Shown here: in pieces, positions 1 through 63,887 of the stretch | Position numbering within the stretch: the first letter of the stretch is position 1 | Layout: each line of letters begins with the position of its first letter | NCBI RefSeq assembly: GCF_900107645.1 | Contig: NZ_FNQN01000006.1 | Location: 124,001-188,000, forward strand | Length of the DNA: 64,000 nt | Reading direction: 5' to 3' | DNA from: Desulfuromusa kysingii | Lineage (GTDB): Bacteria; Desulfobacterota; Desulfuromonadia; Desulfuromonadales; Geopsychrobacteraceae | Position numbers and translations under genes: made by a program | The notes under the pieces: model-generated | Databases searched by the model: none | The model's input: the letters and a program-made list of their open reading frames with translations, nothing else | Told to the model about the DNA's origin: nothing

Positions 1-537
1 AAACGGGCGTCAACATTTTTTGGTCATGGGATTGTTGGTCATGTCCAGTTTGCTGACCCCGTGTGTAACGAACTCTCGTCTGTCCTTGTTGCTGCTGCTC
101 AAAAAGTGGGGGCGACAGTTCATCAAGGTGGCACCTATGTCTGCATTGAAGGACCAACTTTTTCAACCCGGGCCGAATCAAATCTTTATCGGAGTTGGGG
201 TGTTGATATTATTGGCATGACCAATCTGCCTGAAGCACGCTTAGCCCGCGAGGCTGAGATTTGCTATGGAACGGTCGCTCTGGCGACCGACTATGATTGT
301 TGGCATGACAGTCACGATGATGTCTCAGTGGAGGCTGTTATTGCGATCATTCAACAGAATGTCGCGACCGCGAAAAATATCATCAGTACTGCTGCTATGA
401 TGCTTGCTGGACAATCTGAACCTAAAAATTGTGCCTGCTCTGAAGCGCTAAAGTTTGCAATTATGACAAAGAAAGAGATGATCCCGGCAGAGACCCGCAA
501 AGCCCTTGAGCCTATTATTGGAAGATATCTAAAATAA
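1..537 (+). CDS. mtnP: S-methyl-5'-thioadenosine phosphorylase, 3' part
   Basis: Cut off by the left edge: the frame is open from base 1 and ends at TAA 535-537, so about 178 C-terminal residues are present. Visible motifs are GHGIVGHVQFADP, the phosphorylase core YVCIEGPTFSTRAES, the substrate-pocket segment IIGMTNLPEARLAREAEICYG, and DYDCWH. These fit the MTA/purine nucleoside phosphorylase family, which cleaves methylthioadenosine to adenine and methylthioribose-1-phosphate in methionine salvage. The C-terminal segment SEALKFAIMT fits bacterial MtnP. A PfkB kinase follows 12 nt downstream, probably in the same transcript. The MtnP call over other purine phosphorylases is by resemblance. 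Confidence 0.88.
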   Translation, partial: KRASTFFGHGIVGHVQFADPVCNELSSVLVAAAQKVGATVHQGGTYVCIEGPTFSTRAESNLYRSWGVDIIGMTNLPEARLAREAEICYGTVALATDYDCWHDSHDDVSVEAVIAIIQQNVATAKNIISTAAMMLAGQSEPKNCACSEALKFAIMTKKEMIPAETRKALEPIIGRYLK

Positions 538-12549: not shown

Positions 12550-12654
12550 GGTTTTCTCCTCCTGCGAGATGGTCCAGAATCAGGGCGATTGGGATTACGA
12601 CAGAGATCTGTACAGAAAAGATATGCTAACATCTGCAGCTGTGACAACGTCCTC

Positions 12655-12800
12655 GATCCTCTTTTATCCGGACTTTAACCGTCGGCCCTGGCATTTCACC
12701 AGATCTGCTGACCTTCCTCCCCGATGGAAGAAGCGCTCGCGGGCTCCCCGCTCAAAAGTCGGGATACCGCCGGTGGGGACTTTCACCCCGCCCTGAGAAT
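12655..12800 (-). promoter_or_regulatory. FMN riboswitch (RFN element) controlling ribB
   Basis: Read on the minus strand from 12800 it carries the conserved RFN blocks in order: TTCTCAGGGCGGGGTGAAA, TCCCCACCGGCGGTA, AGCCCGCGAGCG, then TCTGGTGAAATGCCAGGGCC, GACGGTTAAAGTCCGGAT and AAAGAGGA, which closes the P1 helix against TTCTC (one G-U pair). About 105 nt separate it from the ribB ATG. I see no strong terminator there, so control of translation initiation (access to the AGGAGG SD) seems more likely than attenuation. Confidence 0.95.
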
Positions 12801-12810
12801 TCGACATATT

Positions 12811-60913: not shown

Positions 60914-60942
60914 TTGACTTATCTTTTCTGTAATTGTTAATT
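60914..60942 (+). promoter_or_regulatory. Candidate pyr operon promoter
   Basis: TTGACT (60914-60919), 17 nt, TTAATT (60937-60942); the -10 is weak. A TAAAAT at 60961-60966 is an alternative -10 without a good -35. Either would start transcription upstream of the PyrR-loop-like hairpin. Confidence 0.35.
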
Positions 60943-60971
60943 TTTTGAAAAATTTGTAACTAAAATATTAA

Positions 60972-61003
60972 CCCTTTAATTTGGTCCGAGAGATCAGCAA
61001 GGG
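60972..61003 (+). promoter_or_regulatory. PyrR-binding-loop-like stem-loop
   Basis: Lower stem CCCTT (60972-60976) with AAGGG (60999-61003); asymmetric internal loop; upper stem TGGTC (60982-60986) with GATCA (60992-60996) and loop CGAGA. The TCC-GAGAG core and the two-tier stem resemble the PyrR binding loops of pyr mRNAs. The 3' arm AAGGG is also the SD of the leader frame that follows. Confidence 0.65.
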
Positions 61004-61011
61004 ATAAAACG

Positions 61012-61056
61012 ATGAAAACACTTTATAAAAATAGATATAACGCCTGTACAGTTTGA
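61012..61056 (+). CDS. Predicted pyr leader peptide (14 codons)
   Basis: ATG 61012 to TGA 61054-61056 encodes MKTLYKNRYNACTV. SD AAGGG ends 8 nt before the ATG. The stop lies in the loop of the terminator, so a ribosome finishing the peptide would cover the terminator's 5' arm and keep it from pairing. No regulatory run of codons is evident, so the act of translation, not the amino acids, would matter. Real translation is not proven. Confidence 0.55.
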   Translation: MKTLYKNRYNACTV

Positions 61057-61075
61057 GCTGTACAGGCGTTTTTTT
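61039..61075 (+). terminator. Terminator/attenuator before pyrR
   Basis: AACGCCTGTACAG (61039-61051), loop TTTGAG, exact complement CTGTACAGGCGTT (61058-61070), then a T-run to 61075. A 13-bp perfect stem 31 nt before the pyrR ATG; also closes lepA-lepB. Confidence 0.92.
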
Positions 61076-61105
61076 GTGTCTGTCCCTTTCTTCAGGAGGA
61101 TTATT

Positions 61106-61656: not shown

Positions 61657-62592
61657 ATGTCTTTCAATCCGAAACATATCCTCGGAATTAAAAATCTGAC
61701 TGCCGACGAAATTAACTTTATCCTCACTACGGCTGAGAGTTTTAAAGAAATTAACACCCGACAGATCAAGAAGGTCCCGACGCTGCGCGGCAAAACGGTT
61801 ATCAATTTGTTTTACGAAGCCAGCACGAGGACCCGGACATCTTTTGAAATTGCAGGGAAGCGACTGTCAGCTGACACAATCAATATCACCGCGGCCTCTT
61901 CGTCGGTCGTTAAAGGTGAAAGCCTCGAGGATACGGCGCGCAATATTGAAGCCATGCGGCCTGATATCATTGTCATGCGTCATAGTGCTTCAGGTGCTTG
62001 TGATTACCTCGCTCAACGGTTGCACTGTTCAGTGATTAACGCCGGAGATGGAACTCACGAACACCCTAGCCAGGCTCTTCTTGATGCCTTCACCATCCGT
62101 CAGCATAAAGGTCACCTGAAGGGATTGACCGTTACCATCGCTGGCGATGTCGCCCATAGCCGCGTTGTTCGATCTAATATCTATTGCCTGAATAAACTCG
62201 GGGCGAAGGTCCGTGTCACCGGTCCGCGGACGATGTTGCCTGTGGGGATTGAAAAGCTGGGTTGTGAAGTCTACTATAACCTCGATGAGGCGATAACCGA
62301 CGCTGACTGTATCATGATGCTGCGGATTCAACATGAACGCCAAGGAAAGACGTTGATTCCTTCGTTACGTGAATATTCCCGTTTCTTTGCCCTTAACGAA
62401 GACAACCTGAAGTTAGCCAAGAAAGATGCCATTGTCATGCATCCAGGGCCTGTAAACCGTGGGGTAGAACTTTCTTCTTCCGTTGCTGACGGTCCCCAAA
62501 ATGTTATTCTTGATCAGGTTGAGAATGGCGTTGCGATACGGATGGCACTCCTTTATCTGGTTGCTGGTGGTGAAAAACTGCAGGTGAATTAA
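61657..62592 (+). CDS. pyrB: Aspartate carbamoyltransferase, catalytic chain
   Basis: 311 aa, GGGAGG SD. Carbamoyl-phosphate loop [25 protein letters not shown]-like [25 protein letters not shown], aspartate-loop RIQHERQ and C-terminal [13 protein letters not shown] are all intact. It condenses carbamoyl phosphate with aspartate, the first committed step of pyrimidine synthesis. No pyrI regulatory chain is seen between pyrB and pyrC, so allosteric control by PyrI is not expected and leader-level control would matter more. Confidence 0.97.
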
Positions 62593-62615: not shown

Positions 62616-63887
62616 ATGAAGACGTTAATTAAAAATGGTCGTGTCATTGACCCTGCAAACAAAATTGACGCTGCCTGTGATGTTTTGATTGAGGATGGCG
62701 TTATCCAAGAGGTCGCTACTAACATCAGCGTGACTGCTGATGAAATTATTGATGCCACAGGGCTATTAGTTGCCCCAGGATTGGTTGATATTCATACTCA
62801 CATGCGTGATCCAGGCTTTGAGTATAAAGAAGATATTATTTCTGGAACCCGTGCGGCAGCTGCCGGTGGTGTCACTTCATTGACCTGTATGCCTAATACT
62901 AACCCCGTCAATGATTCATGTGCTGTGACCCAATATATTATTAATAAAGCCAAACAGCAGGGGAGCGCCAATATCTATCCTATCGCTTCCATCAGCAAGG
63001 GGATGAAAGGGGAGATCCTTGCAGAAATGGGCGACTTGAAGGAGGCAGGCTGTGTTGGTTTTTCTGATGACGGTATCCCCGTAACCCATGGTGAACTGCT
63101 CCGTCGGGCATTTGAGTATGCAGACACCTTTTCTATGCCAATCGTTACCCATTCAGAGGATCTCTCTATCACTGGTTCAGGTTGTATGCATGAAGGGGAT
63201 GTGGCGACTGAATTGGGTTTGCAGGGGATTCCTTGGGTCGCAGAAGATGCCGGGACAGCTCGAGAAATTATGTTGGCAGAGTTTACCGGCGGACGTCTCC
63301 ATGTCTGTCATGTTTCGACCAAAGGGAGTGTTGATTTGATCCGTCATGCCAAAGCGCGTGGCGTTCGGGTCAGCTGTGAAGCCACGCCGCATCATTTTAC
63401 TCTGACAGATGAAGCCGTTCGTGGTTATAATACCAACGCCAAGATGAGTCCACCTTTGCGAAGTCAGGATCATGTCGATGCCGTCCGTGCTGGTCTGGCT
63501 GATGGGACTATTGATGCCATCGCCACTGATCATGCTCCTCACCACTACGATGAAAAGAATGTTGAGTTTCCAGTGGCTATGAATGGTATTGTTGGACTGG
63601 AGTCGTTGCTGCCTCTTAGTTTAAGATTGGTTGCTGATGGTCTCCTTGGCTTGAACTCTTTAATTTCATTATTGACGGTTCAACCCGCCACAATTATGGG
63701 AATCGATCGTGGAACGTTATCTGTTGGTGCCGTTGCTGACATTGTCTTGATTGACTTAGAGCGTGAATGGACGTATACCGCAGAGTCTCTCCACTCAAAG
63801 AGTAAAAACTCTCCATTTCTGGGTTGGGAAATGAAGGGTGCTGCAGTAAAAACCTTGCTCGCTGGGAAAGTGGTATTTGAAAGATAA
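62616..63887 (+). CDS. pyrC: Dihydroorotase
   Basis: 423 aa, GAAAGG SD. Amidohydrolase motifs: [18 protein letters not shown] (HxH with substrate Arg), [33 protein letters not shown] and [14 protein letters not shown]. The Lys that bridges metals in many type I enzymes is not assigned by eye. It cyclises carbamoyl aspartate to dihydroorotate. It is the active, long (type I) class rather than the catalytically dead PyrC' partner, judging by the intact His and Asp ligands. Confidence 0.96.

Follow-up and report, generated by a model that had tools for sequence, protein, structure and literature searches.

The window, i.e. the whole stretch of 64,000 nucleotides analysed here from Desulfuromusa kysingii (contig NZ_FNQN01000006.1, positions 124,001 to 188,000), carries a pyrR-pyrB-pyrC gene cluster. 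Ahead of these genes come, from 5' to 3', a promoter-like element, a PyrR-type hairpin, a frame of 14 codons, a terminator and a separate ribosome site (Table 1). The -10 hexamer of the promoter-like element ends some 28 nt 5' of the hairpin, and the AGGAGG of pyrR lies about 90 nt 3' of it, beyond the terminator. The pyrR product scores 233 bits against its NCBIfam model (cut-off 138) and shows 54% identity to PyrR of Thermus thermophilus across 154 amino acids; judged from its sequence, the PyrR protein of the window is intact.

Table 1. Coordinates in the window of the features of the pyr leader and of the genes that follow it.
Feature	Position	Strand	Basis
Promoter-like TTGACT-18 nt-TAATTT	60914-60943	+	pattern; generic promoter scan without match
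PyrR-binding-loop type hairpin	60972-61003	+	RF00515 match, fold, covariation
Hairpin lower stem, CCCTT/AAGGG	60972-60976/60999-61003	+	
Hairpin upper stem	60981-60986/60992-60997	+	
Hairpin loop CGAGA	60987-60991	+	
AAGGG, hairpin 3' arm and Shine-Dalgarno of the leader frame	60999-61003	+	start codon position in relatives
Leader frame ATG...TGA, 14 codons	61012-61056	+	start and openness conserved
Leader ATG	61012-61014	+	
Leader TGA	61054-61056	+	
Intrinsic terminator, perfect 13-bp stem and T run (T run ends at 61075)	61039-61075	+	sequence, fold
Terminator stem	61039-61051/61058-61070	+	
AGGAGG, own Shine-Dalgarno of pyrR	61094-61099	+	sequence
pyrR, bifunctional pyr regulator/uracil phosphoribosyltransferase, 178 aa	61106-61642	+	NCBIfam NF003549
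pyrB, aspartate carbamoyltransferase catalytic chain	61657-62592	+	reading frame; name from own sequence
pyrC, dihydroorotase	62616-63887	+	reading frame; name from own sequence

A sequence-only reading of this leader had proposed that a hairpin resembling the PyrR-binding loop has AAGGG as its 3' arm, and that the same AAGGG is the Shine-Dalgarno (SD) sequence of the 14-codon frame. The hairpin was recovered at exactly that position by sequence, by fold and by its match to the Rfam family RF00515 ("PyrR binding site"); the second proposal was confirmed as well, the leader ATG lying 8 nt after AAGGG and a start codon being kept there in relatives. The minimum-energy fold of the leader consists of the PyrR hairpin (predicted energy of the hairpin alone, -8.8 kcal/mol) and the terminator (-23.4 kcal/mol), and none of 200 shuffles folded as well (z = -4.1). 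The frame encodes the peptide MKTLYKNRYNACTV, and its TGA is contained in the terminator loop TTTGAG.

Against RF00515, a model of the full leader, the window leader aligns end to end with 45.8 bits (E 2e-5), under the gathering score of 54. The hairpin has the two parts, the conserved CCNGNGAG loop, one base shorter, and the UAA internal bulge of this family; the antiterminator part that the model also contains has no counterpart in the window. We offer this antiterminator part as a possible reason why such leaders are missed or barely caught by the model. Leaders L042, L182, L154 and L172 of our collection (see below) do reach the gathering score, and the Thermus leaders fall below it.

Sequences preceding pyrR were collected from the window's family and order, and the comparison as a whole took in more than 150 relatives (hereafter, L numbers designate leaders, and f and g labels families and genera). 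A comparison with related pyrR loci and a covariation test on the hairpin had both been suggested by the sequence-only reading, and both came out strongly positive. Of 120 regions preceding pyrR in the order, 119 contain the PyrR hairpin. Across 53 distinct sequences, 96% of the cells are paired and five pairs show two-sided changes, with 73 two-sided-change cells against 12.8 +/- 7.5 in shuffles; the signal is lost when the partner is slid by 1 to 3 columns. Related sequences are not independent, and neither are the counts within one family given below, such as the 39 leaders of the window's family. With a covariance model of the hairpin only, a site was found in 143/146 genomes of the class and in 44/247 genomes spread across the phylum, and all 29 hairpin loci fetched in the phylum search adjoin a pyrR gene. 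The position of the terminator is likewise conserved in relatives, and 112 of 117 leaders carry the pattern TTGA-16..18-TnnnnT in the 70 nt that precede the hairpin. In four leaders, L099 and L103 (f18g27) and L158 and L159 (f47), the PyrR hairpin precedes pyrR, but no terminator followed by five Ts was found where one would usually lie; a different mechanism may operate in them. Genome G094 has two pyrR loci on two contigs (L037, L056), each with its own leader, which represents either a duplication or a mixed assembly (6% contamination is reported for it).

We then asked how well the leader frame is kept, using a rule based on position only, namely a start codon 5 to 10 nt past the A/G run of the hairpin arm. 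Such a start was found in all 39 leaders of the window's family (7.8 +/- 2.5 in shuffled linkers) and in 97/117 leaders of the order. In the family, the frame of this start is open into the terminator loop in 36/39 leaders, compared with 4.4 +/- 1.9 for shuffled linkers and 23.6 +/- 2.6 when the start is fixed and only the remainder shuffled; for the two remaining frames the counts are 7/39 and 21/39. Among the other families of the order, 58 of 78 leaders have the downstream start, 53 of them with an open frame (shuffled 14.7 +/- 3.5). When one leader per genus was kept, start and open frame were found together in 32/48 (shuffled 9.0 +/- 2.5). Allowing a start 4 to 11 nt after the arm with a frame open to the terminator gave 38/39 in the family (shuffled linkers 7.7 +/- 2.3), and 6/27 among Firmicutes pyrR leaders, which is the chance level (shuffled 7.0). 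In the window's family, L035 (genome G004) is the sole leader whose frame closes after 3 codons, and its arm is shortened to AAGG.

In the order, 20 leaders lack a downstream start, and each of them has one within the arm itself, nearly always GTG, followed by an open frame (20/20); by comparison, 13 of the 47 leaders with a downstream start have a closed arm frame. Starts within the arm thus occur in many of the related families. The arms concerned read AAAGGTG or AAGGGTG (L041, L042, L057, L058, L060, L061, L062, L065, L066, L069, L070, L071, L072, L077, L078, L102, L104, L106, L114 and L119). In these GTG leaders the start codon is part of the hairpin arm, so that it would be directly concealed by PyrR. 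An ATG inside the hairpin arm is seen in some leaders of f51 (L154, L157, L160).

Under a wider rule, the frame had to remain open until 12 nt or less from the terminator stem, and a start inside the arm was allowed if there was no downstream one. An open frame was then found in 38/39 leaders of the window's family, 78/78 of the other families of the order (shuffled 31.3 +/- 4.3), 21/21 in the remainder of the class (9.4 +/- 2.2), 17/17 in the remainder of the phylum (7.0 +/- 1.8), 7/7 in the Thermus group (1.8 +/- 1.1) and 7/9 in other phyla; counted by genus, 77 of 78 pass. The value for Firmicutes, 7/27, equals the shuffled level (8.3 +/- 2.1), and Firmicutes are a clean negative control, bearing the same hairpin.

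What is not kept is the end of the frame. The sequence-only reading had noted that the perfect 13-bp terminator holds the TGA in its loop, which is true of the window. Relatives differ: the stop codon of some is in the loop, that of others in the stem, and that of others again downstream of where the T run begins, by up to about 117 nt. A conserved stop in the terminator loop was rejected. The outcome named by the sequence-only reading as refuting its proposal, a lack of conservation of the frame or the loop in relatives, was not observed: loop, SD arm, start and open frame into the terminator are kept over the family, the order, the class and scattered members of the phylum, and the position of the stop is not. 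In 20 of the 34 family leaders checked, the frame even overlaps the start of pyrR, ending 4 to 26 nt inside the gene (L007-L013, L015, L017-L019, L021-L026, L030, L032, L034); the window has no such overlap. This overlap could couple the translation of leader and pyrR on read-through transcripts. Start codons are ATG, GTG or TTG, spacing and frame vary between genera, and the peptide sequence is not conserved, from which it follows that the act of translation is what is kept.

How, then, is the terminator prevented from forming? In Bacillus-type attenuation, PyrR binding prevents an antiterminator RNA, and translation is not involved. The window shares with the Bacillus subtilis pyr attenuators the PyrR-binding hairpin, a terminator before a pyr gene, and PyrR. 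An antiterminator was sought in the window through arm-terminator pairing, through duplex energies of own versus swapped pairs, and in folds of the truncated RNA, and none was found. The longest helix between the arm and the 5' arm of the terminator is 3 bp (AGG/CCT), and a helix score of at least 5 was reached by none of the 39 leaders of the window's family, whose own arm/terminator pairs gain nothing in duplex energy over pairs exchanged among genera. Our helix score catches the antiterminator of Firmicutes poorly (at least 5 in 44%, versus 31% for shuffled arms), but pairing probabilities in the truncated RNA, in which the 3' arm of the terminator is not yet made, did separate the groups. 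In this RNA the SD arm is retained in the PyrR hairpin with a mean probability of 0.92 in the window's family and of 0.97 in the window, compared with 0.25 in Firmicutes; the other families of the order are at 0.47.

In these other families the situation is less clear-cut. A helix score of at least 5 was found in 77% of their leaders, typically AAAGGTG with TACCTTT, but shuffled arms give 48% and swapped pairs reach 5 too. Own and swapped duplexes have nearly the same energy (-8.2 versus -8.1), with no family-specific co-variation of arm and terminator, so that an antiterminator in these families is no more than a possibility. The AAAGGTG arm complementary to the terminator TACCTTT is seen in L042, L060, L083 and L039 and in most families of the order except f1, and the longest complementarity of arm and terminator is AAAGGTGTTCG/CGAATACCTTT, in L039 and L040. 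This complementarity may provide the other families with an added antiterminator, besides the leader frame. The absence of an antiterminator noted by the sequence-only reading consequently stands for the family of the window, and may not extend to the many related families with complementary arms. For the window itself, a Bacillus-type mechanism appears very unlikely: the same kind of hairpin, and the complementarity seen elsewhere in the order and class, speak for it, but the PyrR hairpin persists in the truncated RNA, and it would be left unexplained why the start codon and the open frame, which Firmicutes leaders have at chance level, are conserved. In addition, B. subtilis has three pyr attenuator sites, and the hairpin covariance model found no second PyrR site in the genome of the window, its single match being the leader.

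Two other known arrangements involve a ribosome. In E. coli pyrBI, the terminator is kept from forming by a ribosome that translates a leader frame, and UTP is sensed via polymerase pausing, in the absence of PyrR. The leader frame of the window also enters the terminator, so that leader translation might be coupled to pausing of the polymerase at U-rich tracts, with direct sensing of UTP and a minor role for PyrR. We consider this highly improbable, because the stretch from the leader ATG up to the terminator (61012-61038) contains no T run longer than 3, the PyrR hairpin covaries and is better conserved than any other part of the leader, and pyrR is the next gene. In Mycobacterium smegmatis, Fields and Switzer reportedly described, in 2007, translational repression of pyrR, PyrR hiding the ribosome site of the pyr gene itself. 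There too the PyrR hairpin overlaps a ribosome site, and the SD in the hairpin arm is similar; in the window, however, the hidden site belongs to the leader frame, and pyrR, with an AGGAGG to itself, lies about 100 nt beyond the hairpin, on the far side of the 13-bp terminator. That PyrR would directly repress pyrR translation in this way is hardly credible here. Finally, an attenuator responding to an amino acid through its leader peptide, as the short frame before a terminator could evoke, was rejected, and its probability is negligible, since the leader peptides contain no amino-acid runs or clear enrichment, have a composition near that of shuffled linkers and are not conserved, and no alternative RNA structure is present for a stalled ribosome to favour.

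The arrangement that most resembles the window is that of Thermus. For the pyrR-pyrB-bbc-pyrC operon of Thermus strain ZO5, Van de Casteele and colleagues are said to have proposed in 1997 that a translating ribosome prevents the terminator from forming, with no antiterminator. To our knowledge, this translation-dependent proposal was made from one sequence, and we know of no later test of it. We retrieved genomes with the PyrR of T. thermophilus as a query, verified to be PDB 1UFR over its full length. The seven Thermus, Meiothermus and Truepera leaders fetched all have the hairpin, an SD arm of AAAGG type, a start 4 to 7 nt further on and a frame running into the terminator, and none of them has an antiterminator helix. 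They share with the window the SD in the 3' arm of the PyrR hairpin, the frame into the terminator and the lack of an antiterminator, and pyrR is the first gene of the operon in both Thermus ZO5 and the window. The differences are the sequence and the phylum, the A+T-richness of the window, its frame ending in the terminator loop, and its hairpin loop (CCGAGAG), one base shorter than CCNGNGAG in Thermus. The likeness to Thermus drawn by the sequence-only reading was right as to anatomy, and the predicted anatomy of the window element fully matches the Thermus type. Some Omnitrophota and Chloroflexota leaders of the same set resemble this layout as well.

We conclude that the window element is, with good probability, a Thermus-type, translation-dependent PyrR transcription attenuator, in which the ribosome on the leader, rather than an antiterminator RNA, would block the terminator. 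The comparative evidence supports the interpretation of the pyr leader initially put forward, as far as sequence comparisons can speak to it, and the best reading of our counts is that the Thermus-type layout is widespread in this phylum. Sequence and comparison show that SD and PyrR hairpin share nucleotides, that a frame leads from there into the terminator, and that this terminator is strong, with no other RNA structure in competition with it. At low UMP, PyrR would be off the RNA; a ribosome would then open the lower stem of the hairpin, translate the leader and cover the 5' arm of the terminator, so that RNA polymerase would read into pyrR-pyrB-pyrC. At high UMP, PyrR-UMP would clamp the hairpin, the leader would be left untranslated, the terminator would form and the operon would be off. 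It is the passage of a ribosome that would matter, not the peptide made.

Timing is the weakest step of this proposed mechanism. The leader ATG and the last base of the T run are no more than 64 nt apart, and the ribosome must therefore start very early, unless the polymerase pauses or the ribosome follows it closely, and inspection of the sequence identified no polymerase pause site in the leader. The second weak point is the pairing of the SD, predicted to be mostly paired even when PyrR is absent (0.97 in the window): as the hairpin alone pairs most of it (-8.8 kcal/mol), initiation must outcompete the hairpin. If the mechanism is true, pyrimidine control in these bacteria would require RNA polymerase and ribosome to be closely coupled.

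Such a design had been anticipated for Thermus; the comparison extends this one-sequence proposal to a rule for a class of Gram-negative bacteria, and its breadth, the strength of the comparative signal and the contrast with Firmicutes make an old proposal directly testable. Literature searches on PyrR with Geobacter or Thermus yielded no description of such leaders, and a comparative RNA-motif survey states that the Geobacter lineage was left out of its analysis (PMC3766115). A more tentative idea, which we regard as rather doubtful, concerns a hybrid design in the class: in most families, one and the same arm, AAAGGUG, would be the hairpin arm, the ribosome site of the leader (including its start codon in 20 leaders of the order) and the antiterminator strand facing UACCUUU. 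The window's family would have shed the antiterminator and be left with the ribosome alone, and the series would show how Bacillus- and Thermus-type control interconvert.

Elsewhere in the window, an FMN riboswitch (RF00050, 106.6 bits) was found at 12652-12804 on the - strand.
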